A DNA stretch of 39,147 nt, taken from Comamonadaceae bacterium (GTDB taxonomy: Bacteria; Pseudomonadota; Gammaproteobacteria; Burkholderiales; Burkholderiaceae_C). The stretch lies in contig CANFSO010000011.1 in the NCBI GenBank assembly GCA_947449895.1, positions 1-39,147 of the forward strand. The letters run 5' to 3'. The translations under genes and the position numbers were made by a program. The notes beneath the pieces were generated by a model. It did no database searches. It saw only the letters and a list, made by a program, of their open reading frames with translations, and was not told where the DNA came from. Of the stretch, positions 10,357-26,325 are shown one piece after another; within the stretch, counting starts at the first letter, position 1, and every line of letters begins with the position of its first letter.

Positions 10357-10512
10357 TAATTAATCGCTAGCTTGACCTGCTTGAGAATGTCTGCCCAGTT
10401 ACGAGTCTCGTCCTGTATGAACTTTCAAAATTCTTCAGGGCTGCCTGTCACGGGGTCGACGCCTTGGGCGACCAATCGGTTGTGCACTTTCGGATCAGCC
10501 AGCACTTGGCAC
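10356..10512 (-). pseudogene. 3' remnant of a tctC/Bug receptor gene
   Basis: Read on the minus strand, this encodes the C-terminal end of a Bug receptor: VLADPKVHNRLVAQGVDPVTGSPEEF, then an in-frame TGA, then KFIQDETRNWADILKQVKLAIN and a TAA. The piece before the stop is ORF 10425-10700 of the track; the piece after it is too short for the track. Both parts match the ends of the intact receptors in this window in character. The N-terminal 80 percent of the gene is missing. The remnant is joined in a different frame to a thiolase remnant, so this is a deletion scar. Confidence 0.85.
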
Positions 10513-10871
10513 CAAAGCCTGCGGATTGTGCTGCGCATGGTGTGAGTCTGCCACCTTGATCCATGCGAGTTGCTCTGAGGTGCTGCCGTACTCTTGTACA
10601 TGGCGTTTGGCGCACATGGCGTAGCAGTTGGCATTGGTAATGCCTTAGGGGTACTCTCATTGAAAATCAGGTTGTGATGGGTGATGTCGGGCCCATACAC
10701 GGCGCGTCAGCCGAACAAAAATAACCGTCGATGTCGTCCTTTCTCAAACCCGCATCGTCGAGGGCTCCACGCGTAACTTCAGCATGCAATTGCGCGACCG
10801 AATGGTTTGGCGCTCTGCGCAAGGGGTGTGTAGGCGCCCACCATATAGGCTTGACCATGAATACTCGTCAG
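10508..10871 (-). pseudogene. Decayed SCP-X-like thiolase (acetyl-CoA acetyltransferase family)
   Basis: Fragments of one thiolase can be read in order on the minus strand. The start region reads CTG-TSIHGQAYMVGAY, with CTG where ATG is expected. After a frameshift near 10830 it continues HPLRRAPNHSVAQLHAEVTRGALDDAGLRKDDIDGYFCSADAP to a stop. In another frame comes YAMCAKRHVQEYGSTSEQLAWIKVADSHHAQHNP (10515-10623). In intact homologs the second and third pieces are more than 100 codons apart, so an internal deletion is likely. The third piece then runs into the tctC remnant. The gene lies 113 nt downstream of the acyl-CoA ligase on the same strand and was probably its operon partner. Confidence 0.85.
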
Positions 10872-10984
10872 CTTGCTTTGCGCCAGGACTGGCCCGCTGG
10901 GGCCGTAACAATGGGATAAATTTTCATAGGAGATTTTTATAGGGTGGATGGCCGCATGTGGAATATGGAATTCAGGGGTCAAAA

Positions 10985-12544
10985 TTAGGCGTATTTTCGC
11001 GACAATTTTGGATAGGAGCCGTCTATGAATTCATGTGTCGCAAGAATCAGTTCGCAGAGATGTCGCCGATTGATTTTTCCCTGTGGGTTACGCGGCAGAC
11101 TTTCGACACGCAAATAAGCACGCGGATGCTTATGACGCGAGAGCACGCTAACGCGTTCAGCGGCCTCGACCTCCCATCCGTCGCCTGCATTTTCGGCGAC
11201 TGCGACAATTATTTCCCCCCAATAGTCAGATGGGATGGAGGTGACACAGACTGCGCCGCATTTGTGAATTCCCGTCAGCAGAGCCTCGATCTCGTCGGGG
11301 TTGACGCGATAACCACCGGTCTTGATCACATCGGCGATCCGACCTGTTAGCCACAACCTTCCGCGTGAATCCAGACGACCCAAGTCGCCCGTTTGATGCC
11401 AGCCATCGGGCTCATGCGGCTTGAAGCTTCCAGCCTCTATCAATCCGACAGACATCTGAGGCGCACGCAACCAGACCTCACCGGGTGTGTCTGCGCCGCC
11501 ATCTACGTCGGCCTCGCCATGTATGCGGATCTCGACCCCTGGCGCTGGCCAGCCGACACAGGTTCCCGCCGTTCTTTCTTCGAGCGTGAAGTGAGCGTGG
11601 GTGTCATCAGGGCCTAGAGTGGTAATTGGATTGATGCATTCGGTTTTACCAAAGGTGACCCGCACGACCGGCCCGAAGATCGCGCAGGCTTTTTCGTAGA
11701 GCGCCGCCGTGAGCGGTGCCGTTCCCGTGAACACGCAGCGAACACCTGAAAAACGTTCGTTGCCGCATGCTGCGGCGATCTTGGCAAGAACCGTCGGAGG
11801 TGCAAACACGGCGTCAATGCTGCCTGAGCGCAACAGCACCAGCACGCGATCCGTATCGACGCCGTTCAAGAGGATGACTTCGCCGCCAAAGTCACACCAT
11901 GCGAAGGTGAGCAAAGCAGCTCCGTGCGAAAACGGCGTCATCATGAGGATGCGTGAGCCCGGACAGGGTGTGAAGGGCAGACTTGCCTTCAGCATTTGTT
12001 CACCAGTCCACCTTCGACCATGTGTATAAACCGCGCCTTTGGGTCTGCCGGTGGTCCCCGATGAGAACATGATGCGGCCTCGGGCCTCGGTCGGCACCGG
12101 CGGCAATGTCGTGCCTGGATCAAGGTCGGTGAACGCCTCGACCGTCAGTGGCTCTAGGTTGATGGCACGCAGTTCGTTAGCGCGCGCGTCAAGCGAGACG
12201 ACGATCCGGAATTCAGCAAGTCCGGCGCTCCAGCCGATTTCGTCGGTGGTGTAGCCCCAGTTCAGTGGCGCTTCTGCTGCCCCGGTCAGTTTGATGCCGT
12301 AGCAGGCCCAAACTGCTGCAAGGCCGTTGGGAAGGAGCGTTCCGACACATTGCCCGGGCCCGACGCCAGCCGCCATCAACCGGGCCGCCAAGGCGTGGGC
12401 GCGACTGCAGAGCTCGTTGTACGACAGCTGCTCGCAGCCGTTCGTCACCGCCGTCGTGTCGCCGAAGCGTGCGGCAAGAACGCGCAAGTCAGAGGACCAC
12501 GGGACGCCGGTTGCCCGCGTATGAATGGCTTCAGCAGACATCAT
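10985..12544 (-). CDS. Class I adenylate-forming acyl-CoA ligase
   Basis: About 519 aa AMP-dependent synthetase that would activate a carboxylic acid to its CoA thioester using ATP. Seen: phosphate-loop IMFSSGTTGRPKGAVYTH, the A5 motif as FGKTE (usual YGxTE), the A7 motif HQTGDLGRLDSRG, the hinge GRIADVIKTGGYRVNPDEIE, and the catalytic Lys in NPQGKINRR near the end. The track ORF begins at 12655, but that would overlap tctC by 43 nt. The ATG pair at 12544/12541 leaves a 68-nt gap and keeps the whole domain; the start is uncertain. Likely substrates are aliphatic, alicyclic or aromatic acids; I cannot choose. It follows the GntR gene and the receptor on the same strand and precedes the thiolase remnant. 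Confidence 0.85.
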   Translation of the reverse strand: MMSAEAIHTRATGVPWSSDLRVLAARFGDTTAVTNGCEQLSYNELCSRAHALAARLMAAGVGPGQCVGTLLPNGLAAVWACYGIKLTGAAEAPLNWGYTTDEIGWSAGLAEFRIVVSLDARANELRAINLEPLTVEAFTDLDPGTTLPPVPTEARGRIMFSSGTTGRPKGAVYTHGRRWTGEQMLKASLPFTPCPGSRILMMTPFSHGAALLTFAWCDFGGEVILLNGVDTDRVLVLLRSGSIDAVFAPPTVLAKIAAACGNERFSGVRCVFTGTAPLTAALYEKACAIFGPVVRVTFGKTECINPITTLGPDDTHAHFTLEERTAGTCVGWPAPGVEIRIHGEADVDGGADTPGEVWLRAPQMSVGLIEAGSFKPHEPDGWHQTGDLGRLDSRGRLWLTGRIADVIKTGGYRVNPDEIEALLTGIHKCGAVCVTSIPSDYWGEIIVAVAENAGDGWEVEAAERVSVLSRHKHPRAYLRVESLPRNPQGKINRRHLCELILATHEFIDGSYPKLSRKYA

Positions 12545-12612
12545 GAAATCGTATGGCCATGGTTCATTCGGATCCGTTGTGTAAGGCCTGGTCGCCGTTG
12601 GGGTGACGTTGG

Positions 12613-13575
12613 TCAGTCGACGCGGGCACCCGATGCCTTGACGGCGATCGCCCATTTTTCCAACTCGCTCTTGAAGTAAGCCGCAGTCTGTTCGGGCGTG
12701 TACTCGAGCGCTTCAGCCCCCATCCCAATCAAGCGCTCCCTTGTCGCCGGCTTCGCGAGCGCCGCATTGAGTTCAGCGTTCATTTTTTGAATAATCGGCT
12801 TGGGTGTGCCCGCTGGTGCTAAGAACGCAGCCCAAGCGAGCGCGCTGAAACCGGGCAAACCAGCCTCGGCCACCGTGGGTACTTCTGTCAGTGGCTGTGA
12901 GCGGCGCGGACTGCCGACCGCAAGGACCTTGAGCTTGCCGCTCTTGATGTGCGGAAGGACGGCCGGACCAGACTCAAACATCATGCTGATTTCGCCGCTG
13001 ATAAGCCCGATCAAGGCTGCTGAGGCGCCTTTGTAAGGCACATGTGTCATTTGCAAGCCAGCTGATGTTTTGAACAATTCCATCGTCAGGTGGTTGGTAA
13101 GTCCGATACCGCCGGAGCCAAAATTGAGCTTGCCTGGGTTTTGCTTGACATAGGCAATCAGCTCCTTGAGGTTGTTGGCAGGGATATCCTTGTTGATCAC
13201 AAGGAACTGCGGCACCGCCACCATCATGCCGATGGGTTCGAAGTCCTTCAGCGTGTCATAGGGCAGCTTCGAATAAAGCGACGGGTTGATGGCCAGAGGC
13301 CCGCTGGCCGCCATGAGCAAGGTGTAGCCATCGGGCACAGCGTTCTTTCCTAGCTCGGTGCCAATGATGGCGCCAGCGCCGGCCTTGTTGTCAACAAAGA
13401 AACTCTGGCCCAGTGACTCGGTGAATTGCTGCGCCAGTATGCGCGCCATGATGTCGGTGGTTTGCCCTGCTGGGTAAGGCACGATGATGCGCACCGGCCG
13501 GTTCGGATAGGCGCTTTGCGCAAGGGTCAAGCTCGACATCAGGCAAATGAGAATCGACGCGAAGATTTTTTTCAT
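12613..13575 (-). CDS. Bug/TctC-type periplasmic solute receptor
   Basis: 320 aa periplasmic binding protein of the Bug (Bordetella uptake gene)/TctC family. Signal peptide MKKIFASILICLMSSLTLAQSA, then the family start YPNRPVRIIVPYPAGQTTDIMAR. Further family marks are NKAGAGAIIGTE, DGYTLLM, SKLPYDTLKDFEPI, FGSGGIG, HVPYKGASAA and APAGTPKPIIQKMN. These proteins bind small organic acids or amides through backbone contacts, so the ligand cannot be read from sequence. It lies between the GntR regulator (39 nt upstream) and the acyl-CoA ligase, so its ligand is probably the acid activated by that ligase. No tctA or tctB is nearby. Confidence 0.93.
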   Translation of the reverse strand: MKKIFASILICLMSSLTLAQSAYPNRPVRIIVPYPAGQTTDIMARILAQQFTESLGQSFFVDNKAGAGAIIGTELGKNAVPDGYTLLMAASGPLAINPSLYSKLPYDTLKDFEPIGMMVAVPQFLVINKDIPANNLKELIAYVKQNPGKLNFGSGGIGLTNHLTMELFKTSAGLQMTHVPYKGASAALIGLISGEISMMFESGPAVLPHIKSGKLKVLAVGSPRRSQPLTEVPTVAEAGLPGFSALAWAAFLAPAGTPKPIIQKMNAELNAALAKPATRERLIGMGAEALEYTPEQTAAYFKSELEKWAIAVKASGARVD

Positions 13576-13614
13576 GGTGTGTCTCGGTGATTGTTTGAAG
13601 TGAACGTGAGAGGC

Positions 13615-14418
13615 TTAGTTGAAGGTCTCTGCTGAGTCCTTGTTCCAAGAAGTGACTAGCTGGAAGCGGTCTGCGATATACAGGTTGGCCGACGCACTCA
13701 GCAGACGGCCGTTGCGGTCGAAGTAACAGCGCAGCATGCGAAGTGCCGGGCTGCCGGGTTTAAGTTGCAGTAGTCCTGCCGCCTCGCTGGGCATCAAGGT
13801 GGCTTCAATGTGCTGCAACACAGACGCCACTTCTTCACCGTAAAGCTGATTGAGCAGGGCGTAAATGCTGGGGTGGTCACCGTGCAGGTGGTTCTGGATG
13901 TCGGCGAATTCTGGGCGCAGGTAAACCTTGGTGAATGAGATGGGCGCATCCTGGCCCACTAAGTGCCGCTTGGTGTGCAGCTCAAGCCACTCCGAGCCGA
14001 CCTCGCAGCGCAGGTCTTGGGCCAGTTGTGCGTCGGCCGTGACGCGGGCTTGACCCAGCACTTCAAGGCGTGTGGTGTTGGTGTATTTCATCAACGCTTC
14101 GAGGGAGCCCAGCGCGGCGACATAGGGTGCAGCTGGTTGGCTGGCCATCACGATGGTGCCAATGCTGGGGCGACGCGAAATAAGGCCGCTGTCGACCAAT
14201 TTGCGCGTAGCTTCGCGAACCGTGTGGCGGCTGACACCAAACGTTTTACCCAATTGGTCTTCGGTCGGCAGCAGACTGCCCACCGGGTATTTACCGCTTT
14301 TGATATCTCGCAGCAGGCACTCGTGTAGCCAGACATAGCGCGGCGTTGGTGGCGCAACGGTTGTGCGCACGGCGCGGCCAGTTTGCGACAGAGATGCGTT
14401 TAATTTGGATGTTTTCAT
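13615..14418 (-). CDS. GntR family regulator, HutC/UTRA subfamily
   Basis: 267 aa transcription factor. The N-terminal winged helix covers about 30-92 (PVGSLLPTEDQLGKTFGVSRHTVREATRKLVDSGLISRRPSIGTIV). A UTRA effector-binding domain follows (about 105-260, with the typical late segment SLRCYFDRNGRLLSAS-like: LRMLRCYFDRNGRLLSASANLYIADRF). UTRA domains sense small metabolites, often the substrate of the neighbouring pathway. The ATG at 14418 is preferred to the GTG at 14424. It stands at the head of the minus-strand genes and is divergent from the CoA-transferase operon. Two repeats of TTTRTACGGACA in the shared gap are candidate operators. Confidence 0.9.
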   Translation of the reverse strand: MKTSKLNASLSQTGRAVRTTVAPPTPRYVWLHECLLRDIKSGKYPVGSLLPTEDQLGKTFGVSRHTVREATRKLVDSGLISRRPSIGTIVMASQPAAPYVAALGSLEALMKYTNTTRLEVLGQARVTADAQLAQDLRCEVGSEWLELHTKRHLVGQDAPISFTKVYLRPEFADIQNHLHGDHPSIYALLNQLYGEEVASVLQHIEATLMPSEAAGLLQLKPGSPALRMLRCYFDRNGRLLSASANLYIADRFQLVTSWNKDSAETFN

Positions 14419-14432
14419 TTGCACTTTTTAGC

Positions 14433-14444
14433 TTTATACGGACA
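14433..14444. promoter_or_regulatory. Candidate GntR operator, copy 1
   Basis: TTTATACGGACA, within the wider imperfect palindrome CTTTATACGGACAAAG, lies 14 nt upstream of the gntR ATG. It matches the second copy 35 nt away at 11 of 12 positions. Position and repetition suggest autoregulation by the adjacent GntR protein. Confidence 0.5.
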
Positions 14445-14467
14445 AAGATTTCGCTTGCCTATGCTCG

Positions 14468-14479
14468 TTTGTACGGACA
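14468..14479. promoter_or_regulatory. Candidate GntR operator, copy 2
   Basis: TTTGTACGGACA, containing the small dyad TGT-ACGG-ACA, is 79 nt upstream of the divergent CoA-transferase ATG. Same orientation as copy 1 and 35 bp from it, so both promoters could be controlled together. Confidence 0.5.
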
Positions 14480-14558
14480 TTGAAAAATTGATTCCATGCG
14501 ACCATGAAACACCTTTCCCTGACGCTTTGAAGACGACCTCCGCACTCGATGAATCCCT

Positions 14559-15755
14559 ATGTCTGACACCCTCCCGCCTGACGCCGCCCGCACGGGCCCC
14601 TTTGCCGGTCTCGTCGTGGTGGAGCTCGGGCACAGTGTGGCGGCTCCCTTTGCCGGCCAAATTTTCAGCGAGCTTGGCGCGCAGGTCATCAAGATAGAAA
14701 AGGCCGACGGCGACGATGCGCGCAAATGGGGGCCACCATTTTGGGAAGGTGCCTCGGCATTTTTTCAGGCGCTCAACCGCAACAAACAGTCTGTCGTTTG
14801 CGAGCTTCGCGATCCTGCGCAACTGGCCGCACTCAAGCAATTGATTTGCGACCGGGCCGACATCGTGATCCAGAACCTGCGGCCTGGCCATGTCGACAAA
14901 CTCGGTCTTGATGGCCCCGGGTTGCTGGCGCTCAAGCCGTCCCTGATTTACTGCAACCTCGGCGCATTCGGGCGGACGGGCCCCTTGAAGGACCGGCCCG
15001 GCTACGACCCTTTGATGCAGGCCTTTGGCGGCATCATGAGTACAACGGGTGAACCGGGGCGGCCTTCAGTGCGGGTCGGCGCCTCAATCGTCGACATGGG
15101 TACCGGCATGTGGTCTGTCATCGGCATTCTGACCGCACTGCACGAGCGCCACACAACCGGGCGGGGAAGGGTGGTCGATGTGTCCCTTTTCGAGACCGCC
15201 AGTTGCTGGGTGTCATTGCTGGCTGCACAATTTCTGGCCTCGGGTCAATTGGCGGGCAAGCAGGGTTCCGGTGCGCCCGGTATCGTGCCCTACAAAGGCT
15301 ACTTAACACGCGACGGCGAAATCGTTGTGGCCGCGGGGAGTGACGGCTTGTTTCGCAGCCTAGCCGGTGCGTTAGACCGACCGGAGTGGCTGGCAGATGC
15401 CCGCTTCACGGACAACCCCAGCCGGGTGGCGCATCAAGTAGAGCTTTACGCTATGTTGGACGCCATCATGGCGCAGCAAACCACCGCGCACTGGATTGAG
15501 CGCCTAGAGGCCGTGGGCGTGCCGTGCTCGCCAGTCAACGACTTGGCCCAGATGCTCGTGCACCCTCAGACCAGCGCGCTTGGTTTAGTCCAGTCTGTGC
15601 CCGGCACCGGCATGCAGTTTGTTGGACTACCACTTAGTTTTGACGGCAAGCGTCCCCAGCCTGTTTCTGCGCCGCCCAGGCTTGGCGAGCACAACGCATT
15701 GCTTGGTTTTCCGGCGTTCATTTCTGATCCCCTTTCTGTACGGAGCGACACATGA
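14559..15755 (+). CDS. CaiB/BaiF family (class III) CoA-transferase
   Basis: 398 aa CoA-transferase that would move CoA between carboxylic acids, typically activating a substrate at the expense of succinyl-CoA or another acyl-CoA. Seen: N-terminal GLVVVELGHSVAAPFAGQIFSELGAQVIKIE, the NRNKQSVV loop, QNLRPGHVDKLGL, and the expected catalytic Asp179 in VGASIVDMGTG. C-terminal GLVQSVPGTG-GMQFVGLPLSF-type ending and PPRLGEHN close the family fold. First gene of a plus-strand operon; the hydratase start overlaps its stop (ATGA). There is also an AMP-ligase across the divergent promoter, so two activation routes sit in one island. Confidence 0.92.
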   Translation: MSDTLPPDAARTGPFAGLVVVELGHSVAAPFAGQIFSELGAQVIKIEKADGDDARKWGPPFWEGASAFFQALNRNKQSVVCELRDPAQLAALKQLICDRADIVIQNLRPGHVDKLGLDGPGLLALKPSLIYCNLGAFGRTGPLKDRPGYDPLMQAFGGIMSTTGEPGRPSVRVGASIVDMGTGMWSVIGILTALHERHTTGRGRVVDVSLFETASCWVSLLAAQFLASGQLAGKQGSGAPGIVPYKGYLTRDGEIVVAAGSDGLFRSLAGALDRPEWLADARFTDNPSRVAHQVELYAMLDAIMAQQTTAHWIERLEAVGVPCSPVNDLAQMLVHPQTSALGLVQSVPGTGMQFVGLPLSFDGKRPQPVSAPPRLGEHNALLGFPAFISDPLSVRSDT

Positions 15756-16552
15756 CACCCATCCCCGCGTATGAAACCGTGGCTATTGACATGGTTGGCG
15801 CCCATGTGCTGAAAGTCACCCTGAATCGGCCACAGGTCGGCAATGCACTCAACACGCAAATGGGCCGTGACCTACTGGACTTGTGGACCCGGCTGACGGA
15901 AGACGCTGGTGATATTCGCTGCGTGGTGCTGACGGGCGCTGGCGACAAAATATTTTGCGCGGGCGGTGACCTCAAGGAACGTAACGGCATGACCCGTGAG
16001 GTCTGGCGGCGTCAGCACGAGCTGTTCGAGCGTCAGTACTGGACGTTGGCCGACCTGCCGACACCCGTGATTTCAGCCGTCAATGGCCACGCCTATGCGG
16101 GTGGTCTAGAGATGGCTCTCTGCTGCGATTTCATCTACGCCAGCAGTGCCGCGCGTTTTGCGCTGACCGAAGTCACTCTGGGGATCATGCCGGGCGCTGG
16201 TGGCACGCAAAATCTGCCGCGCGCCATTGGCGAGCGCCGTGCCAAAGAAATCATCATGACTGGCCGGCCTTTTGATGCTGCACAGGCCTTGGACTGGGGA
16301 CTGATCAACCAGGTGCATGCACCGGGCGACGTGTTGGCCCGGGCGCTTGAAACTGCCGAAGTGATCGCCAGCAACGCGCCGCTGTCGGTACGTCAAGTCA
16401 AGAAGTCTATCCGCTATGGCGGACAAATGGAGTTGCGCACGGCTTACCGCTTTGAGGTCGAGGCCTACAACCACTTGGTCGACACTGAAGACCGAATGGA
16501 AGGCGTCAAAGCCTTCAACGAAAAACGCAAGCCGGTTTTCAAGGGTCGTTAA
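15752..16552 (+). CDS. Enoyl-CoA hydratase/isomerase (crotonase fold)
   Basis: 266 aa cytoplasmic crotonase. Both acidic residues needed for hydration are present: Glu120 in HAYAGGLEMALCCDF and Glu140 in ALTEVTLGIMPGAGGTQNLPR. The oxyanion-hole loop IFCAGGDLKERN is also intact. It is therefore expected to hydrate a 2-enoyl-CoA to the 3-hydroxyacyl-CoA. Translationally coupled to the CoA-transferase by a 4-nt overlap and followed by the acyl-CoA dehydrogenase, whose product would be its substrate. Confidence 0.92.
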   Translation: MTPIPAYETVAIDMVGAHVLKVTLNRPQVGNALNTQMGRDLLDLWTRLTEDAGDIRCVVLTGAGDKIFCAGGDLKERNGMTREVWRRQHELFERQYWTLADLPTPVISAVNGHAYAGGLEMALCCDFIYASSAARFALTEVTLGIMPGAGGTQNLPRAIGERRAKEIIMTGRPFDAAQALDWGLINQVHAPGDVLARALETAEVIASNAPLSVRQVKKSIRYGGQMELRTAYRFEVEAYNHLVDTEDRMEGVKAFNEKRKPVFKGR

Positions 16553-16631
16553 GACGCTACCTCGTTTCATGCCGACCCACGATAAGCTGACCCGGGTCGT
16601 CGGATTTTATTGATCAATGATGGAGTGAGCC

Positions 16632-17816
16632 ATGGACGAGAATTCAGCAACTTACAGCATCGAGGTGGGCGATGACTACCCCGAAATCCGCGATAGCGTA
16701 CGCCGCGTTTGCGCCGACTTTCCAGGGGCTTACTGGCGCAAGCTCGAAGAGGCCGAGGCCTACCCGACGGAGTTCGTCCAAGCACTGACAGTGGCCGGCT
16801 ACCTTGGCGCACTGATCCCTGAGTCTTACGGCGGCAGCGGTATGCCTTTACGCACCGCAGCGGTGATTCTTGAAGAGATACATGCGTCGGGCTGCAACGC
16901 CGGTGCTTGCCATGCCCAGATGTACACCATGGGCACTTTGCTGCGCCACGGTAGCGAGGCGCAAAAGCAGCGCTACTTGCCGCAAATAGCCAGTGGCAAG
17001 CTTCGGCTGCAGGCTTTTGCCGTGACCGAACCGACCAGTGGCACCGACACGACCAAGCTCAAGACCCGTGCCGTGCGTGATGGCGACAGCTATGTCATCA
17101 CCGGTCAAAAGGTCTGGACCTCGCGCGCTCTGCACTCAGACCTCATGTTGCTGCTGGCACGCACCACGCCTCTCGACCAAGTCAAGAAAAAGAGCGAGGG
17201 GCTGTCAGTCTTCCTTGTAGACATCCGTCAGGCGCTGGGCAAAGGCTTGGACATCAAGCCCTTGAAGGCGATGATCAATCACAACACGACTGAAGTCTTT
17301 TTCGACCAGCTGCGCATCCCGGCTGACTGCCTGATTGGCGAGGAGGGCAAGGGCTTTAAGTACATCTTGGACGGCATGAATGCCGAGCGTATTTTGGTTT
17401 CTGCCGAGGCGATTGGTGACGCGCGTTGGTTCACCAAAACATCGATCGCCTATGTCAACGAACGCCGCGTGTTCGACCGGCCGATCGGGCAAAACCAGTC
17501 GGTTCAATTTCCTGTGGCGCGAGCACACGCAGAAACCGAGGCGGCAGATCTGGTGCTGCGCCGTGCTGCCGCCCGTTTTGCGGCTGGGCTGCCCTGCGGC
17601 GATGACGCGAATATGGGGAAACTGCTTGCATCCGAAGCCTCTTGGCATGCCGCCGAAGCCTGCCTACAAAACCACGGCGGCTTTGGTTATGCCCGCGAAT
17701 ACGACGTTGAGCGCAAGTGGCGCGAAACGCGTTTGTTCCAGATCGCGCCCATCTCAACCAACTTGGTGCTGTCCTACATAGCCGAGCACATGCTGGGCAT
17801 GCCGCGCTCGTTTTAA
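16632..17816 (+). CDS. Acyl-CoA dehydrogenase, catalytic Glu in IVD/LCAD position
   Basis: 394 aa FAD-dependent acyl-CoA dehydrogenase that introduces the 2,3-double bond. Seen: FAD/substrate segment AFAVTEPTSGTDTTKLKT (128-144), ITGQKVWTSRA, and C-terminal NHGGFGYAREYDVERKWRETRLFQIAPISTN. At the site where MCAD and SCAD carry the catalytic Glu (YEGTS), this protein has QIAPISTN, so that base is absent. Glu252 in GMNAERILVSAEAIG aligns with the Glu used by isovaleryl-CoA and long-chain dehydrogenases. That hints at a branched or bulky substrate, but is not proof. It starts 79 nt after the hydratase gene. Confidence 0.9.
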   Translation: MDENSATYSIEVGDDYPEIRDSVRRVCADFPGAYWRKLEEAEAYPTEFVQALTVAGYLGALIPESYGGSGMPLRTAAVILEEIHASGCNAGACHAQMYTMGTLLRHGSEAQKQRYLPQIASGKLRLQAFAVTEPTSGTDTTKLKTRAVRDGDSYVITGQKVWTSRALHSDLMLLLARTTPLDQVKKKSEGLSVFLVDIRQALGKGLDIKPLKAMINHNTTEVFFDQLRIPADCLIGEEGKGFKYILDGMNAERILVSAEAIGDARWFTKTSIAYVNERRVFDRPIGQNQSVQFPVARAHAETEAADLVLRRAAARFAAGLPCGDDANMGKLLASEASWHAAEACLQNHGGFGYAREYDVERKWRETRLFQIAPISTNLVLSYIAEHMLGMPRSF

Positions 17817-17844
17817 GCCTTGCTTAACTTTTTAAAGGCCTCAC

Positions 17845-19218
17845 ATGTCCGCTCCATTTCCCTTGACTCAAGCCTTGGCCAAATTTGTGGCAGCCCCGAC
17901 ATTTGGCGCTGACGAACAGGCCGCTTGCGCGATTGCCAAGACAGGTTTCATAGACACCATCGCCACCATGATGGCCGGCTGTAATGAACCGGTGGTCGGC
18001 ATAGTCAAGCAACATGTGGCAGCCAATCAGACACCGGCCGAAGCGCCTGTAGTGCCCTTTACCGGGGCCATGCTGCCGGCGGCGCAAGCTGCCTGCGTCA
18101 ACGCCGTTGCCGCTCACGCGCTTGACTTCGATGATGTCGCGCTGTCAGCGCACACCAGCACGGTTCTGGTCCCGGCGATTCTGGCGGAAGGCCATTTGCT
18201 CAACGTGTCAGGCGCAGAAGCATTGCGCGCTTACGTGGTGGGCTATGAGGTCTGGGCTGAGCTGTTTGCCCGCGAGCCAGACCCTTACCATTTGAAGGGT
18301 TGGCATCCAACGGGCGTCTTTGGCACGGTCGGTGCAGCGGCAGCCGTGGCTTACCTACATCGTTTGTCGGCCGAACAGACCCAACAAGCGTTGGCGATTG
18401 CGGCCAGCATGGCCAGTGGACTGGTGGCCAATTTCGGCACCATGACCAAGCCGTTTCACGCTGGGCGCGCCGCTGCTTGCGCGATTGAGGCGGTGCGTCT
18501 GTCTCTACTCGGGCTGACGTCCGCCCCTGATGTGTTCGAGCACCCGGCTGGGTATTTGAATGCTTTGTCGCCAGCCGGTCGGGTCGACCGCACACGCGCA
18601 GCCAGCGGACTGGGCAAGTCGTTGCGCATTCTGAAGACCGGCCTGTCGGTCAAGCGCTACCCGGTGTGCTACTCGGGTCATCGTGTGATTGATGGCGTGA
18701 TGGAGATCGCCGAACGCGAAAACCTTCAACCCGAACAGGTCAGCCGAGTGCGGGTGAGCATGGGCCCGGCGCAGGTGTCTATGCTGCGCAACCACAGCCC
18801 GCACACCAGCCTGGAAGCCAAGTTCAGCGCTGAGTTTGCCGTTGCCGCAGCACTGGTGGCGCGTCAGGTTGGCCTAGCCGAACTCACTGACAGCTTCATC
18901 GCAAGGGGCGACGTACGAACGCTGATGGGCAAAGTGGTGGTCGACACCACCGACCGTGCATGCCCCATTGACCCAGCCTTCTCCTATGCCGACCGGGTAC
19001 AGATCGAGCTGACCGATGGCAGCTCATTTGACTCTGGCGACATCCGCTTTGCGCGGGGTAACGCTGAGCTGCCGATGGACGCGGAATGCCTGCGGACTAA
19101 ATTTTTAGACTGTGTTGCGGCCGGCCCGGCATCCGACAAAAGTTTGTCAGGCACAGTGCTTTATGAGCGCATTGCTAATTTGGAAAATCTCGCAAGTCTT
19201 CGGCAGTTGTTTGCTTGA
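17845..19218 (+). CDS. MmgE/PrpD family protein
   Basis: 457 aa protein of the MmgE/PrpD family, whose known members dehydrate 2-methylcitrate or isomerise/decarboxylate related acids such as cis-aconitate. Seen: NAVAAHALDFDDVALSAHTSTVLVPAILA (about 88-115), GYEVWAELF, GWHPTGVFGTVGAAAA near 150, MTKPFHAGRAA near 197, and KRYPVCYSGHRVIDG near 270, all typical of the family. Bug-containing clusters often carry a PrpD-like protein with no known substrate. It starts 28 nt after the dehydrogenase stop and 47 nt before the receptor start. It suggests that the substrate has a tricarboxylate-like or hydroxylated branched skeleton, though this is inference. Confidence 0.9.
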   Translation: MSAPFPLTQALAKFVAAPTFGADEQAACAIAKTGFIDTIATMMAGCNEPVVGIVKQHVAANQTPAEAPVVPFTGAMLPAAQAACVNAVAAHALDFDDVALSAHTSTVLVPAILAEGHLLNVSGAEALRAYVVGYEVWAELFAREPDPYHLKGWHPTGVFGTVGAAAAVAYLHRLSAEQTQQALAIAASMASGLVANFGTMTKPFHAGRAAACAIEAVRLSLLGLTSAPDVFEHPAGYLNALSPAGRVDRTRAASGLGKSLRILKTGLSVKRYPVCYSGHRVIDGVMEIAERENLQPEQVSRVRVSMGPAQVSMLRNHSPHTSLEAKFSAEFAVAAALVARQVGLAELTDSFIARGDVRTLMGKVVVDTTDRACPIDPAFSYADRVQIELTDGSSFDSGDIRFARGNAELPMDAECLRTKFLDCVAAGPASDKSLSGTVLYERIANLENLASLRQLFA

Positions 19219-19265
19219 GAACCACTGTCGTCAATGCATGGAAAGGCCAATCAATTGGAGACAGT

Positions 19266-20255
19266 ATGTCAATAAATAAGTCGACGCGACGGATTTGGTT
19301 AACACGAGTTATCGGTGCTTCAGCCGTCTTGGCCAGCCATGTGACGAGTACTGCGCAGACCAAGTACCCGGGCAAGACGATCCGTGTGATCGTGCCGTAT
19401 GCCCCCGGCGGTGGAACCGATGTCATCGGTAGGAAATTACTGCAAAACATGGCGAGTCAATTGGGTCAGCCGATCATCATTGACAACAGGCCGGGGGCGG
19501 GAACTGTGATTGGAACGGATGCCGTCGCACGAGCCGAAGCTGACGGTTACACGCTGCTGATCAACACCAACGCGATTGCCGTGAACGCCTCTCTGGTCAA
19601 AAAACTACCCTACAACACCTTGCAGGATCTTGTGCCAGTAGGCCGTATTTGTACAGGACCCAATGTCCTCGTGGTTCGGGCTGACAGTCCCTTCAAAACC
19701 CTGAGCGACATCATCCGGGCATCCAAGGCCATGCCGGGTAGTCTCAGTTATGCATCTTCGGGCAACGGCACGGCTGTTCATCTTGCGGCGGAACTCCTGA
19801 AGGTCACTGCCAAGATCCGCATCCTGCACATCCCTTATCGGGGCGCCGGCCCAGCCTACACAGATTTACTGGGTGGCCAAGTCGATATGCTTTTTGGTAC
19901 GGCAGGCGGCGTGAGTAAATTTGTCCAGTCGGGACGCATGCGTGCCATTGCTGTCACCTCAGAGTCTCGGTCTGCGGCCTATCCCGACGTTCCCGCCGTC
20001 TCTGAAACCTTGCCTGGGTATGCTGCCAACGTTTGGTATGGCATGTTCGCACCAAAGGGGACGCCCAACGAAATTCTGACTGCGCTGAATGACGCGATGC
20101 GTCTTGCCGTCAGTGATCCGGGCTACAGCGCAGACCTTGTACGGGACGGCTTGACGGCCGCGGTTAATTCTCCTTCTGAGATGGTGACCTTCATGCGCAG
20201 CGAAGTCGAGCGTTGGCAAAAAGTCGTCACTGAAGCTGGCATCACACTGGACTGA
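19266..20255 (+). CDS. Bug/TctC-type periplasmic solute receptor
   Basis: 329 aa receptor. The ORF track begins at a TTG (19215), but GGAG at 19257-19260 lies 5 nt before the ATG at 19266 and the signal peptide (RIWLTRVIGASAVLASHVTSTAQT) then has a normal length. Family marks: YPGKTIRVIVPYAPGGGTDVIGRK, NRPGAGTVIGTD, DGYTLLI, KKLPYNTLQDLVPV, YASSGNGTAVHLAAE, HIPYRGAGPAYTDLLGGQVD and APKGTPNEIL. The ligand is unknown. It lies inside the CoA-transferase/hydratase/dehydrogenase operon, so it probably captures that pathway's substrate. It is the second Bug receptor of this island. Confidence 0.93.
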   Translation: MSINKSTRRIWLTRVIGASAVLASHVTSTAQTKYPGKTIRVIVPYAPGGGTDVIGRKLLQNMASQLGQPIIIDNRPGAGTVIGTDAVARAEADGYTLLINTNAIAVNASLVKKLPYNTLQDLVPVGRICTGPNVLVVRADSPFKTLSDIIRASKAMPGSLSYASSGNGTAVHLAAELLKVTAKIRILHIPYRGAGPAYTDLLGGQVDMLFGTAGGVSKFVQSGRMRAIAVTSESRSAAYPDVPAVSETLPGYAANVWYGMFAPKGTPNEILTALNDAMRLAVSDPGYSADLVRDGLTAAVNSPSEMVTFMRSEVERWQKVVTEAGITLD

Positions 20256-20269
20256 CATCGAAAGAATTT

Positions 20270-21070
20270 ATGACGAACAAAAGATTATTGGGTAAGGTCT
20301 GCATCATTGTTGGGGCCGGACAGCAACCGGGTCAAACGCTCGGTAATGGTCGCGCCGTTGCAGAGCGGTTCGCAGAGGAGGGTGCCTCGTTGTTGCTGGT
20401 CGATATCAACCCGGACTGGCTTGAGGAAACGGTGCAGGCTGTGCGTGCCCACAAGGGCATCGTGCATTCGCTGGTCGCGGACATCACGCAGGAGTCTCAG
20501 TGCCAACAGATCGCCGCAACCTGCATCCAGCATTTCGGAAAAATTGATGTTCTTCACAACAATGTCGGCCTTTCAAAGGGCGATAAACGCACGGCGGATT
20601 TGGACGTTTCTGCGTGGGACTACATCATGGACAGAAACCTCAAGGGGATGTTCATGACGTGCAAGCATGTCTTGCCGCACATGGTTCGGCAACGATCCGG
20701 CTGCATTGTGAATATTTCATCGACATCATCTCTCGCTGCCAGGCCTACATTGACCTACAAGACCAGCAAGGCCGCAGTCAACGCGATGACTCAGCACATC
20801 GCTGTCGAAAATGCGCCATTCGGTATCCGTGCAAACGCAATTTTGCCCGGACTCATGGACACGCCTATGGCGATCAATCGGCGAGCTCAAGAGCAAGGCA
20901 TTGACCCCGAGTTAATCCGCCAGCAACGCAGCGCACTGGTTCCCATGGGGCGCATGGGGACAGCGTGGGACGTTGCCAATGCGGCGGTCTTCTTGGCCTC
21001 TGATGAAGCGGCCTACATCACCGGCGTGCTGTTACCCGTAGACGGTGGGCTGCTTCAAAAACGGGGATAA
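20270..21070 (+). CDS. SDR family oxidoreductase, possible 3-hydroxyacyl-CoA dehydrogenase
   Basis: 266 aa classical short-chain dehydrogenase. The nucleotide-binding loop is a longer variant, VGAGQQPGQTLGNGRAVA (14-31). Cofactor Asp is in LLLVDIN, which favours NAD(H). Then HNNVGLSKG, the catalytic Ser in IVNISSTSSLAARP, and the YKTSK motif. The C-terminal end GVLLPVDGGLLQ is standard. Its operon (hydratase, acyl-CoA dehydrogenase) makes oxidation of a 3-hydroxyacyl-CoA a sensible role, but SDR sequences rarely fix a substrate. It is the last gene of the operon, 14 nt after the receptor. Confidence 0.9.
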   Translation: MTNKRLLGKVCIIVGAGQQPGQTLGNGRAVAERFAEEGASLLLVDINPDWLEETVQAVRAHKGIVHSLVADITQESQCQQIAATCIQHFGKIDVLHNNVGLSKGDKRTADLDVSAWDYIMDRNLKGMFMTCKHVLPHMVRQRSGCIVNISSTSSLAARPTLTYKTSKAAVNAMTQHIAVENAPFGIRANAILPGLMDTPMAINRRAQEQGIDPELIRQQRSALVPMGRMGTAWDVANAAVFLASDEAAYITGVLLPVDGGLLQKRG

Positions 21071-21074
21071 ATGC

Positions 21075-21102
21075 CCACGAGCTTTGACGTACTCAAACGT
21101 GG
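21075..21102. terminator. Hairpin between convergent SDR and SMP-30 genes
   Basis: CCACG-agc-TTTGA-cgtac-TCAAA-CGTGG forms a two-part stem (5 + 5 bp with a 3-nt bulge) that fills the 33-nt gap between two converging genes. There is no clear T run on either side, so it would be an imperfect bidirectional terminator at best. Confidence 0.35.
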
Positions 21103-21103
21103 C

Positions 21104-22039
21104 TTATTCAGCCGATTGTTTGTGTGAGTACAACTCAAGTCCAACGGCTGGTAAATTGGCTACCAGCAGGCTGCCAGTGGCCGACTCTGTCATCACAATT
21201 TGCATGGAATCTGGGCGAAAAGCGAGGTTGGTCACCGTAGCACCCGACGGGCTCTTGACAAAGTGCGTGACTTCACCGCGTGCATTGAGCACAAAAGCGC
21301 CACCCAAGCTGGCATGGGCGACCACCAGGCGAGCTTCGCTGTCAAGCGCCATCCCGTCCGGGCCACTGCTACCATAGAACGTCTGGAAAGCGCCCATCTT
21401 GCTGATACTGCCGTCGGGCAGCAGCGGCGCACGCCATATTTGATTGGCTCGGGTGACGGCTAAAAAAAGAGCCTTGCCATCAGCGCTGATGGCGATGCCA
21501 TTTGGGCTGGGGGCGTTGCTCAGTAAAAGGTCTAATTTGCCGCTGTCAGTGCACCAACGATAGACCCGCCCGGTGGGGTCATGCAGGCCGGTTTGTCCTT
21601 GATCGGTGAAGTACAAATTGCCATTTGGATCAAAAGTCAGATCATTGATGCCCTTGAAGGATTCACTGTTGCGGTGCCCTAGCATGGTGCTGATGACGCC
21701 GGTTTTTGGATCTAGCCGCAAAATGCCCTGTCGGTAGTCAGCAATCCAGACACTGCCATCGGCATGCACCGCCAGTCCATTCGGCCAGCCGCCGTAGTCG
21801 GCCACGCAGTGCCACTGCAAATCCGAAGTTACCCTGAAGATCCTGCCGTGCGGTATGTCCGTCAGGTACAGGTTGCCGGCGCGGTCAAAGCAGGGGCCCT
21901 CCAGAAAACAATCAACAATTTGGCCGGGTTTGTTCGCATCAGCCCAGTTGCTGGGCACCGGTCGCCGCAGTTCATCTGGCAAGCGGGTCAGTACCTGGGC
22001 TTCAATGATTTGCGGTGGTGTGAATGAAAGGTTCCACAT
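21104..22039 (-). CDS. SMP-30/gluconolactonase/LRE-type lactone hydrolase
   Basis: About 311 aa six-bladed beta-propeller of the SMP-30/gluconolactonase/LRE family, which hydrolyse lactones with one bound divalent metal. Likely metal ligands are visible: Glu in FLEGPCFDRAGN, Asn in GINDLTFDPNG, Asn in APSPNGIAIS and Asp in SSGPDGMALD. The motif PNGLAVHADGSVWIADY is a typical blade. The ORF track starts at 22084 within the CoA-transferase gene; the ATG at 22039 gives the common MWN... start and avoids the overlap, but neither has a clear Shine-Dalgarno. Last gene of the seven-gene minus-strand operon. A lactone intermediate in that pathway is a reasonable inference. Confidence 0.85.
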   Translation of the reverse strand: MWNLSFTPPQIIEAQVLTRLPDELRRPVPSNWADANKPGQIVDCFLEGPCFDRAGNLYLTDIPHGRIFRVTSDLQWHCVADYGGWPNGLAVHADGSVWIADYRQGILRLDPKTGVISTMLGHRNSESFKGINDLTFDPNGNLYFTDQGQTGLHDPTGRVYRWCTDSGKLDLLLSNAPSPNGIAISADGKALFLAVTRANQIWRAPLLPDGSISKMGAFQTFYGSSGPDGMALDSEARLVVAHASLGGAFVLNARGEVTHFVKSPSGATVTNLAFRPDSMQIVMTESATGSLLVANLPAVGLELYSHKQSAE

Positions 22040-22062
22040 GGTCTGGCACTTTGATGAAAACG

Positions 22063-23550
22063 TTAAGGTTGCCGGGGTAGCCATTGCGCTGCGTCGCTCC
22101 CTAAGCGTGGCGATGGTCGGTCCCAGTGGGGAGGCGTGCTGGACATCTGCAACACCGGGCCCAAGGTTTTGAGTTGGCCATAACAGGTGTTGGCTTGCAC
22201 GTGCAGTTTTTCAAGCTCGTCCTCCGTCAAGCACCCCGGCGCAGCGGCAAAGGATTCAAGTAAGCCCTGGCGTTGCACAAACATGGCCGACTGACACAGC
22301 GAGACCTGCACGTGGTAGCTGCCGCCTTCGCGTGCCCGGCGTGCTAACGCCAGCATGGCACCAAGCGCCGCCAAGTACCCGGTGGTGTAATCGCACAATG
22401 GAGCAAAGACCAGCTTGGGTTGGCCTCCCTGAGTCAACAGGCCATTGGTGTGGCAAATGCCGGTGACGGCTTGAGCGACCTGTTCCCAGCCTGCGCGCGA
22501 AGCCCACGGTCCGCCTGAACCGAAGCAGCTAACGGACACAACAACCAGCCCTGGCCGTTGCGCCACAAGGTCTTCGACAGAAAACCCGTGAGCGGCAAGT
22601 CGTCCGGGTCGATAGCCGTCGATGAACACGTCGGCCTGGCTCACTAACGCACGCAGTTCTTCTGCTTGAGAGGGTTCGCGAATATTCAGAAAGCAACTGC
22701 GTTTACCGTGACTGGTGTCTCGCACATGCTCGGGTGTTTGAGGAAGGCCTTCTGCGCCGACCATCAGGACATCAGCCCCGTGCTCAGCCAGCGCGCGACC
22801 GGCCACCGGTCCCGCCAAAATACGGGTCAAGTCCAGCACTCGAACACCCGAGAGCGGCCTGTCTCCGCTGTGCAGTTGCTCGGGCGCAGTGTCTGCTATT
22901 TTTGTGATTTCAATCACAGGTCTTGCTGCAAGATAACGGCCCTGTGGATGCTCAAGCCATTCTTGTGGACTGCGAATCATGCCGCCGCAGGCGCCTGCGT
23001 TGGCGATGGCATCCTCCAGGGCAACACCTTCCCAGCCGGCGACGGCTTGGCGCACAGCCGCCGGCGTGTCGTCGCAAGCCAGAACGTCTAGTACGCGGCG
23101 ACTCAGGTGGGGAAGGTTGAGGTGGGGCAGCAGCCAGTGGCCGTCCTTCGTCGGCCAAGGTTGGGTCACGCCGAGCATGTGTGACATGGCTGCGGGAATG
23201 GGAACGTGGACATACTGTCCGTCCTGATTCAGCGCCCGTGTGTAGTCCACGGTGCGCAGCGTTGCTGCCGCAGGGGCAACATCGACGTGTATTTTCTGCC
23301 GCAAGCCGGTTCTGAGTTCCCATAAGTCGTTGGCGGCAACCCCGATAGCAGCCAATGCTGCGGCTACAGTTTCGCCCACCCGATAAGGCGTTGGAAAAAA
23401 CGGGTCGCTGCCGGTCATGCTTAATTCGCCAGGAGCCAGCTCATCTTGACCTCTGAGCGCCATCAATTCGGCGAGTGCGCGCCATTTTCCAGGGGGCTGA
23501 AGCTTGTCAGACTTGTTTGGATTGGGCGTAGACGTAGGGAGGGTGTTCAT
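22063..23550 (-). CDS. Long CaiB/BaiF CoA-transferase with N-terminal extension
   Basis: 495 aa, about 100 aa longer than a standard class III CoA-transferase. The canonical N-terminal motif SGVRVLDLTRILAGPVAGRALAEHGADVLMV appears only near residue 233, after about 200 residues that resemble the back half of a CaiB domain (TQPWPTKDGHWLLPHLNLP, EDAIANAGACGGMIRSPQEWLEHPQG). This is the layout expected if the domain were circularly permuted or partly duplicated. The candidate catalytic Asp is in FAPLCDYTTGYLAALGAM, and the C-terminus (LGPVLQMSSTPPHWDRPSPRLGSDA) is a normal CaiB end. It starts 1 nt after the receptor stop. Substrate unknown. Confidence 0.88.
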   Translation of the reverse strand: MNTLPTSTPNPNKSDKLQPPGKWRALAELMALRGQDELAPGELSMTGSDPFFPTPYRVGETVAAALAAIGVAANDLWELRTGLRQKIHVDVAPAAATLRTVDYTRALNQDGQYVHVPIPAAMSHMLGVTQPWPTKDGHWLLPHLNLPHLSRRVLDVLACDDTPAAVRQAVAGWEGVALEDAIANAGACGGMIRSPQEWLEHPQGRYLAARPVIEITKIADTAPEQLHSGDRPLSGVRVLDLTRILAGPVAGRALAEHGADVLMVGAEGLPQTPEHVRDTSHGKRSCFLNIREPSQAEELRALVSQADVFIDGYRPGRLAAHGFSVEDLVAQRPGLVVVSVSCFGSGGPWASRAGWEQVAQAVTGICHTNGLLTQGGQPKLVFAPLCDYTTGYLAALGAMLALARRAREGGSYHVQVSLCQSAMFVQRQGLLESFAAAPGCLTEDELEKLHVQANTCYGQLKTLGPVLQMSSTPPHWDRPSPRLGSDAAQWLPRQP

Positions 23551-23551
23551 C

Positions 23552-24526
23552 TCATTCAGGCTTGATGCCCTGTTGCTTGATCAGCGCCGACCAGCGTTTG
23601 ATCTCGCTTTCAACTTGCTGGACGGCTGCCGCTTGTGAGCTGGCAACGGTTGTCAGTCCCATGTCGGCGCTGCGCTTTTTCACATCAGGCAAGTTCAACA
23701 CCGCGTTGATATCCTTGTTGAGTTTTTCGAGGATGGGCTGAGGTGTCCCCGCGGGTGCAGAAAATCCGACCCAAAAGTCCATGGCCATTTCTGGCAGACC
23801 TTCATCTTTGGCCGATGGCACATCAGGCAACACCGGGGATCTTGTATTGCTAAGCACCATCAAAGGTCGAAGTTTGCCGGACTTGATGTGCGGCAGCACT
23901 GTGGTGACTGTTGAGATCATCATCTGCACTTGGCCCCCCATCAGATCGGTCAGAACCGCACCGGCGCCGCGGTACGGAATGTGTGTGATGAAGATGCCGG
24001 TTTGCGACTTGAGCAGCTCGGAACCTAGGTGCGTGTTGGTGCCGATACCGCCTGAGCCGTAATTAAGGCTGCCCGGCTTGGCTCTGGCCAGCGCAAGGAA
24101 CTCTTTCATGGTCTTGGCTGGGAGGCCGGGTGTGACCACCAAGACATGCGGCACTGACACCGCCGTGGTGATGTGAGAAAAGGCATTGCGCGGGTCAAAT
24201 GGCAGGTTGGGGTTGAGTCCTGCCGCGATGGCATAAGACAACTCCATCGTGATCAACGTGTGACCATCCGGGGCTGCGCGCGCCACGCTGCCCCAGCCGA
24301 TCGCGCCTGCGCCACCCGTTCGGTTCTCGACTAACACTGGTGCGCCCAGCGGTCCCGCCAATTGTTGTGCGACCAACCTGGCAACAATGTCGGTGGCCCC
24401 GCCCGTTGCAAATGGGACGACGATGGTAGTGGGCTTGGACGCTAAGCCCTGGGCGAAAGCTGAGGGAGTCATAGCCGCTAACCCGGCCATGGATAAAGCG
24501 GCATTTAAGAAGTAGCGTTTTTTCAT
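23552..24526 (-). CDS. Bug/TctC-type periplasmic solute receptor
   Basis: 324 aa receptor with signal peptide KKRYFLNAALSMAGLAAMTPSAFAQG. Family marks: KPTTIVVPFATGGATDIVARLV, NRTGGAGAIGWGSVAR, DGHTLITM, NLPFDPRNAFSHI, YGSGGIGTNTHLGSE, HIPYRGAGAVLTDLMGGQVQ, APAGTPQPILEKLN. It lies 39 nt after the crotonase gene and directly before the long CoA-transferase. It is one of two receptors in this operon and is clearly a different paralog from the other, which suggests two ligands or a duplicated uptake step. Confidence 0.93.
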   Translation of the reverse strand: MKKRYFLNAALSMAGLAAMTPSAFAQGLASKPTTIVVPFATGGATDIVARLVAQQLAGPLGAPVLVENRTGGAGAIGWGSVARAAPDGHTLITMELSYAIAAGLNPNLPFDPRNAFSHITTAVSVPHVLVVTPGLPAKTMKEFLALARAKPGSLNYGSGGIGTNTHLGSELLKSQTGIFITHIPYRGAGAVLTDLMGGQVQMMISTVTTVLPHIKSGKLRPLMVLSNTRSPVLPDVPSAKDEGLPEMAMDFWVGFSAPAGTPQPILEKLNKDINAVLNLPDVKKRSADMGLTTVASSQAAAVQQVESEIKRWSALIKQQGIKPE

Positions 24527-24565
24527 CTAGTCTCTTTTATAAAAATGATCAAAGGGTTTTGTATC

Positions 24566-25300
24566 CTAGGGATGCTCTCGCCGTTTCCGTATCGCTGCAT
24601 TGACTTGTTGTCCCTGTTCCATGCCGGTGCGCCAGGCGTTAAAGCCCTCGGGAACGGCTTGCAGAGCTTTTTTTGTTTCTTCTAGAGCTGTTGAATCGAA
24701 CCCGGCGATGGTTTGGGCTAGCTGTGCAGTGCGGGTCATCAATTGATCACTAGGCACCACCTCATTGAGCAGTCCCCAGCGTTCTGCTGTCAGCGCATCA
24801 AGTGGCGTATTGGCCAGTAACAACCAAGCAGCGCGTTTGCGGTTCACAAGGAGTTGACTGGTTGGGCCGGCCATGCTCGCGAAAGCCGCAAAACTAATCT
24901 CTGGGCAACCTAAGGTGGCGGTGGCTGATGCCAGCGCTAAATCGCTTGAGTTGATGAGCGTCACACCCTGGCCGAGTGCGACGCCATTGACTGCCGCAAT
25001 CACAATGGCCGGGTGCTCGCGCAATGCCATGTTGATTTCAATCGCATCTGATCCGGCGCTGTCGACTTGGCCTGAGGCTATTTCTGCTTCCCGTTCCCTC
25101 AGATCTAGACCGGCGCAAAAGCTAGCTCCTGTTCCCGTCAACACAATGACCTGAACCTTGCCACGCAAGGACTCAAGCGCACGCAACAAACTGTCCCGTG
25201 TCGCTCGATCCAAGGCGTTCCGTTTGGACTCTCGGTCGATCCTCAGCAATGCCCAGCCGGGGTGCTGTTCAATACAAAGCGTAGTGGGCTTCAGTGTCAT
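24566..25300 (-). CDS. Crotonase-fold protein lacking one catalytic Glu
   Basis: 244 aa enoyl-CoA hydratase/isomerase family protein. CoA-binding and oxyanion parts are present (KRNALDRATRD; GTGASFCAGLDLRERE). In the active site the first Glu of hydratases is replaced by Thr114 (VALGQGVTLINSSDL where hydratases have GGGCELAL). The second Glu is kept as Glu134 (LGCPEISFA), and the usual PGAGGTQRL is changed to SMAGPTSQL. A single acidic residue suits an isomerase or another crotonase reaction better than hydration. It starts 4 nt after the upstream receptor gene. The exact reaction is unknown. Confidence 0.85.
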   Translation of the reverse strand: MTLKPTTLCIEQHPGWALLRIDRESKRNALDRATRDSLLRALESLRGKVQVIVLTGTGASFCAGLDLREREAEIASGQVDSAGSDAIEINMALREHPAIVIAAVNGVALGQGVTLINSSDLALASATATLGCPEISFAAFASMAGPTSQLLVNRKRAAWLLLANTPLDALTAERWGLLNEVVPSDQLMTRTAQLAQTIAGFDSTALEETKKALQAVPEGFNAWRTGMEQGQQVNAAIRKRREHP

Positions 25301-25304
25301 CAGG

Positions 25305-26300: not shown

Positions 26301-26306
26301 CGCTTG

Positions 26307-26312
26307 TCTCCT
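26307..26312 (-). promoter_or_regulatory. Ribosome binding site fixing the tctC start at 26300
   Basis: AGGAGA, six bases before the ATG. It is the clearest Shine-Dalgarno in this operon and rules out the longer ORF reading that begins within the CoA-transferase gene. Confidence 0.75.
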
Positions 26313-26325
26313 GTTGTTTCTATGT

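Follow-up and report, generated by a model that had tools for sequence, protein, structure and literature searches.

How does the pathway encoded at this locus end? The stretch of DNA analysed here (the window, 39,147 nt) is contig C11 of a Comamonadaceae genome assembled to 2.72 Mb in 209 contigs with a completeness of 78.5%. It carries two divergent sets of genes for CoA-dependent catabolism of an acid, and next to them lies the ruin of a thiolase gene. An earlier note had read positions 10508-21070 as a single beta-oxidation-like island from which the thiolase step was missing. A different terminal step is suggested by the comparison of this locus with its relatives.

Gene content, control region and boundaries of the module

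Every gene listed in the earlier note was found and falls into the expected family (Table 1). The acid is activated twice, as had been proposed, by an AMP-forming ligase and by a CoA-transferase, and the two genes also occur together in the related loci L068 and L071, where ligase orthologues with 51-53% identity come after the MmgE/PrpD gene. The sister genome G005 contains a ligase fragment of 94% identity; there (L041 14214-14693), what comes after the ligase is a truncated TctC gene or remnant and not a thiolase. For the CoA-transferase CaiB, the nearest solved chains of named function are 4hl6 (YfdE) and 9br6 (SUGCT, E 4e-68). The enoyl-CoA hydratase (ECH) has the full set of catalytic glutamates attributed to it, and its closest PDB neighbour is 3kqf, followed by 5jbx/5jbw (PDB name 3-hydroxybutyryl-CoA dehydratase), which we take to be LiuC of Myxococcus. 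The acyl-CoA dehydrogenase (ACAD) carries Pro373 at the position where most members of the family have their catalytic Glu; Glu252, 121 residues upstream, is invariant and is presumed to be the structurally equivalent base. A catalytic base more than 100 residues upstream is also present in the isovaleryl-CoA (IVD) and long-chain (LCAD) dehydrogenases (PMC10925408). In the MmgE/PrpD protein, His149 occupies the position at which methylsuccinate isomerase (Msi) and IDS epimerase carry the catalytic Tyr.

Table 1. Coordinates of the features discussed in the text
Feature	Position	Strand	Remark
Decayed C-terminal tail of a TctC receptor gene, outside the module	10380-10502	-	TctC_a residues 273-313, E 8e-5
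Remnant of an SCPx-like, DUF35-partnered thiolase-domain gene, outside the module	10504-10846	-	homology to Cupriavidus protein
AMP-forming acyl-CoA ligase (PF00501)	10985-12655	-	family match and orthologues
TctC_a, periplasmic receptor of the module	12613-13575	-	74-81% identity at the equivalent place in L062, L063, L067
GntR/UTRA (HutC-type) regulator	13615-14424	-	69-79% identity at the equivalent place in L062, L063, L067
Palindromic operator 1, TTTATACGGACAAA	14433-14446	.	conserved in six loci with this regulator
Palindromic operator 2, TTTGTACGGACATT	14468-14481	.	35 nt after operator 1
CaiB/BaiF class III CoA-transferase	14559-15755	+	PF02515, 2.5e-112
Crotonase-family enoyl-CoA hydratase (ECH)	15752-16552	+	both catalytic Glu (GGLEMA / LTEVTLG)
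Probable scar of a deleted HMG-CoA-lyase-family gene, 33 nt (FMPTxDKL, codons 22-32)	16566-16598	+	
Acyl-CoA dehydrogenase (ACAD), methylsuccinyl-CoA-dehydrogenase-like clade	16632-17816	+	
MmgE/PrpD family protein	17845-19218	+	nearest solved fold IDS epimerase
TctC_b receptor	19215-20255	+	neighbouring module
SDR	20270-21070	+	neighbouring module
Intact HMG-CoA-lyase-family gene, IclR-HMGL-CaiB cluster	27540-28475	-	47-48% identity to operon lyase

Two palindromes lie between the GntR and CaiB genes, and they are the only exact matches to these palindromes in the genome sequence. The divergent GntR-TctC arm was found in the closest loci. The palindrome pair recurs with the same spacing in L062, L063, L067 and L071 and with a spacing of 30 nt in L068, and is missing in L064, L066, L069, L070 and L074, the loci without a divergent GntR gene. 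Since these conserved palindromes are shared, both divergent arms probably answer to one regulator, and an expression of the two arms under unrelated conditions, which the earlier note had named as evidence against its reading, appears less likely. Neither palindrome occurs close to the second lyase gene (27540), and the hypothesis that they are operators of that gene was rejected.

TctC_b and the SDR had been counted as a second receptor and as the putative 3-hydroxyacyl-CoA dehydrogenase of the route. Their orthologues in genome G134 (89 and 93% identity, respectively) stand beside SGL, CaiB2, TctC_c and ECH2, without CaiB-ECH-ACAD-MmgE. We therefore assign the TctC_b-SDR pair to the right-hand neighbouring cluster, and by this comparison the module boundary is at about 19218; a single island extending to 21070 was not confirmed. 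Both receptor genes exist, but the second one belongs to the neighbouring cluster, and the SDR, as part of this adjacent pair, was ruled out as the dehydrogenase of the pathway.

The region to the right is a second CoA-based cluster (21104-28475: SGL, CaiB2, TctC_c, ECH2, TctC_d, CaiB3, an HMG-CoA-lyase gene and a divergent IclR gene), the IclR-HMGL-CaiB3 part of which is conserved in the sister genome G052. TctC genes are dense in this DNA, with four intact copies (12613, 19215, 23552 and 25305) and a dead one (10380) in about 16 kb. In G052, window positions 10385-24956 are absent and a truncated ECH2 is found at the junction (L042 15120-15166). Either 14.6 kb were deleted there or G052 represents the state without an insertion; this absence marks the region as prone to deletion.

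Origin of the thiolase remnant

The ruined gene beside the ligase does exist. Two stretches of the minus strand match an SCPx-like "thiolase domain-containing protein" of Cupriavidus: 10846-10700 corresponds to its residues 9-57 (69% identity) and 10701-10510 to its residues 124-184 (52% identity). Stops and frame changes interrupt the remnant, about 65 amino acids are gone internally and about 200 at the C-terminus, and it continues into the decayed TctC tail, the final stretch of which also adjoins an MFS gene in G052. In relatives, a DUF35 gene accompanies SCPx-like genes of this kind; no DUF35 remnant was found in the window. Used as a query against a plasmid collection, the remnant retrieved SCPx-like genes only, all of them in other contexts, and no ligase orthologue accompanied by an intact thiolase was found. 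The remnant derives from an unrelated locus of the SCPx/DUF35 type, an origin which the earlier note had itself regarded as speaking against its interpretation. Nor is it the only thiolase, as had been stated: elsewhere the genome contains eight Thiolase_C hits, and the proposed search for SCPx-like thiolases returned one intact gene together with its DUF35 partner on contig C111. Because thiolases are plentiful in this genome, the remnant tells little about the operon.

Conservation of the operon and of a lyase gene within it

Relatives of the plus-strand operon were gathered by a genome search and by scanning GTDB species genomes, the query being a dehydrogenase alignment. The survey set consists of 30 named loci in the dehydrogenase group of the window, 26 of which have both ECH and ACAD; locus counts are lower bounds, with several loci ending at contig ends. 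The nearest operon relatives with named records are from Polaromonas (L062, L067) and Ramlibacter (L063). The gene order CaiB - ECH - [HMG-CoA-lyase family] - ACAD - MmgE is kept: 17 of the 26 loci have an HMG-CoA-lyase-family gene exactly between ECH and ACAD, and MmgE adjoins the dehydrogenase in 22 loci. A thiolase within 10 kb was present in none of the 30 loci; in L095 and L146, the thiolase queries picked up thiolases. Completion of the route by a thiolase was rejected on this count, and the gap in the window that had been ascribed to a thiolase corresponds to a lyase in the relatives. The suspicion that the pathway may end differently thus proved well founded, the route of the relatives probably ending with an HMG-CoA-lyase-type enzyme. 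MmgE/PrpD, the candidate offered for that role, was discarded as terminal enzyme by analogy with Msi, which works on the free acid (PMC12290011).

A search with the operon lyase of a Polaromonas relative hit HMG-CoA lyases of known structure (1ydo at E 7e-70 and the human enzyme 2cw6 at E 3e-55), and the operon lyases of the relatives keep the HxH metal site (HFHDT) and the GGC loop GGCPFAPGASGN. They are placed in the HMG-CoA-lyase family and may act on HMG-CoA. Plasmids of Paraburkholderia and Pontibrevibacter carry the same genes joined to genes annotated as HMG-CoA lyase, and ETF/ETF-QO or C4-dicarboxylate TRAP genes lie next to them. The operon is conserved and apparently uncharacterised and occurs in Polaromonas, Ramlibacter, Bordetella and other bacteria; a literature search found no described 3-methylglutarate operon and no described HMG-CoA-lyase/MmgE operon.

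Loss of the lyase gene

A gap of 79 nt separates ECH from ACAD in the window. It contains a match to a lyase gene in the right place and the right orientation, and the match falls at one and the same position of the lyase in each of three relatives. Dinucleotide shuffles reached the score of this match in 0 of 1000 cases against L045, in 4 of 1000 against L062 and in 381 of 1000 against L043, so that the score against L043 is not significant and the match is graded as a probable rather than a certain scar. A clear scar is seen in Ramlibacter L063 (9891-9939), where the beginning of the lyase gene survives (43 of 49 nt), followed by a deletion to the lyase end; this is an independent loss. The operon is likewise without a lyase in L064, L066, L069, L070 and L074; DNA photolyase genes come after MmgE in L064, L069 and L070, those checked. 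Operons without the lyase fall into at least three distinct parts of the dehydrogenase tree: the window itself, Ramlibacter L063, and the group of L064, L066, L069, L070 and L074. The tree marks the window as lyase-bearing solely through the separate gene at 27540.

Ten genomes with no lyase in the operon or dehydrogenase locus were checked, and each of them contained one to four lyase-family genes. The terminal enzyme was dropped from the operon several times, probably since a housekeeping paralogue can replace it. Three further HMG-CoA-lyase-type genes are present in the genome studied here. The one in the window at 27540-28475 has the HxH and GGCPxAPGASGN motifs, is of a type found in 33 of 87 genomes of the genus and is a candidate for the lyase step in trans. 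The second, on C15, adjoins a CaiB gene, and the third, on C109, adjoins a biotin carboxylase gene and is probably the lyase of the leucine pathway. Most likely, one of these three genes supplies the deleted step in trans.

Predicted pathway and alternative explanations

We consider it likely that the two arms, GntR-TctC-ligase and CaiB-ECH-ACAD-MmgE, make up a single catabolic module that converts a beta-branched dicarboxylate into acetyl-CoA and a keto acid, with the lyase gene deleted. The acid would be taken up by way of the TctC receptor and transport, and MmgE/PrpD may adjust the free acid in an isomerase-like manner. The CoA ester would then be made by the CoA-transferase and/or the ligase, the dehydrogenase would put in an alpha,beta double bond, and addition of water by the crotonase would give a tertiary beta-hydroxy-dicarboxylyl-CoA, predicted to be split into acetyl-CoA and a keto acid by an HMG-CoA-lyase-family enzyme. 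Since a tertiary alcohol cannot be oxidised, such a route needs neither a 3-hydroxyacyl-CoA dehydrogenase nor a thiolase, and the puzzling "missing thiolase" becomes a testable pathway prediction. The substrate would be 3-methylglutarate-like or methylsuccinate-like; these two readings are substrate-level versions of the same explanation and not alternatives to it.

Catabolism of 3-methylglutarate (or 3-methylglutaconate/HMG) would proceed via 3-methylglutaconyl-CoA and HMG-CoA to acetoacetate and acetyl-CoA, the last steps being those of leucine degradation. We favour this substrate tentatively. The HMG-CoA-lyase homologue, the SUGCT-like CoA-transferase, the match of the hydratase to 5jbx/5jbw, a dehydrogenase with an upstream base as in isovaleryl-CoA dehydrogenase and the apparent replaceability of the lyase all point in this direction. 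The likeness of the hydratase is not specific, the score of 3kqf being higher, and MmgE/PrpD proteins are not known to act on 1,5-diacids, which counts against this substrate. The locus may accordingly represent an undescribed bacterial operon of the 3-methylglutarate type, with a dehydrogenase of the upstream-base family common to methylsuccinate clusters, a new MmgE/PrpD subfamily, and a lyase repeatedly discarded since a housekeeping HMG-CoA lyase serves; we put this combined proposal forward as one possibility, short of being probable. The new MmgE/PrpD subfamily would thereby gain a pathway context.

Methylsuccinate (or mesaconate) is conceivable as well, though a more doubtful choice. 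Here the crotonase would stand in for a MaoC-type hydratase, and the HMG-CoA-lyase homologue would act as a citramalyl-CoA lyase yielding pyruvate and acetyl-CoA. The dehydrogenase is 66-69% identical to those in clusters annotated as Ict-Ich-Ccl-Mcd-Msi type or parts thereof, and MmgE is always beside or near the dehydrogenase. MmgE/PrpD enzymes of known function work on 1,4-dicarboxylates, which share the succinate backbone (PMC12290011), and on that point methylsuccinate therefore fits better than 3-methylglutarate. On the other side, MmgE is just 31% identical to Msi, the Msi proteins of that cluster type being 67-69% identical among themselves, and has His in place of the catalytic Tyr; the CoA-transferase is nearer to SUGCT, with 33% identity to Ict; and a housekeeping HMG-CoA lyase seems able to stand in for the operon lyase, as the repeated loss of the latter suggests.

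A point to be held against a functional dicarboxylate module is that the pathway, having lost the lyase from its operon, might be in decay instead of being complemented. In that case the whole module would be a relic here and would lack a functional last step, as the deleted lyase, the decayed neighbouring genes and the absence of the region from G052 could suggest. This is unlikely: all remaining reading frames of the module are intact, and active-site motifs and operators are conserved. The weakest explanation, a beta-oxidation-like route that has lost its own thiolase and uses another one in the genome, could invoke the remnant beside the ligase and the thiolases found elsewhere, but is highly improbable in view of the 30 loci without a nearby thiolase, the lyase gene found instead in the operon of 17 of 26 loci, the unrelated type of the remnant, the ligase relatives L068 and L071 without a thiolase and the foreign SDR.

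Comparison with known systems

From a thiolase-terminated beta-oxidation island, the dicarboxylate module differs in having neither an intact nor an ancestral thiolase, and no 3-hydroxyacyl-CoA dehydrogenase of its own. The SCPx-like thiolase/DUF35 pairs, represented in the window by the ruined gene without a partner, are unrelated to the operon in every compared locus. SUGCT (succinate-hydroxymethylglutarate CoA-transferase) is among the best solved relatives of CaiB; it is a lone mammalian enzyme that is not in an operon. With the leucine/isovalerate (Liu) pathway, the module shares the hydratase and HMG-CoA-lyase families and a branched acyl-CoA chemistry, whereas subunits of methylcrotonyl-CoA carboxylase are absent among the operon genes and the operon would start from the free diacid via CoA-transferase or ligase.

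Among characterised systems, the five-gene itaconate/methylsuccinate cluster Ict-Ich-Ccl-Mcd-Msi (PMC12290011, PMC9875883) comes closest. By annotation, Mesorhizobium L144 and the Comamonadaceae plasmid locus L147 carry exactly this set. Common to both systems are a CoA-transferase of the CaiB family, a hydratase, an aldol-type lyase, a related ACAD (66-69% identity) and a neighbouring MmgE/PrpD gene, as well as TctC receptors in the Comamonadaceae example L147. In an unrooted tree, the window dehydrogenase falls into a group separate from the Mcd-type dehydrogenases with 100/99 support. The window has a crotonase instead of the MaoC-type hydratase Ich, its relatives have an HMG-CoA-lyase-family enzyme (deleted in the window) instead of the CitE-type lyase Ccl, and its MmgE, with the Tyr to His exchange, is of another subfamily than Msi; the GntR/operator control and the additional AMP-ligase are its own. 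The module is thus predicted to work like the itaconate/methylsuccinate cluster, yet it departs from this cluster in three of the features that define it, Msi, Ich and Ccl.
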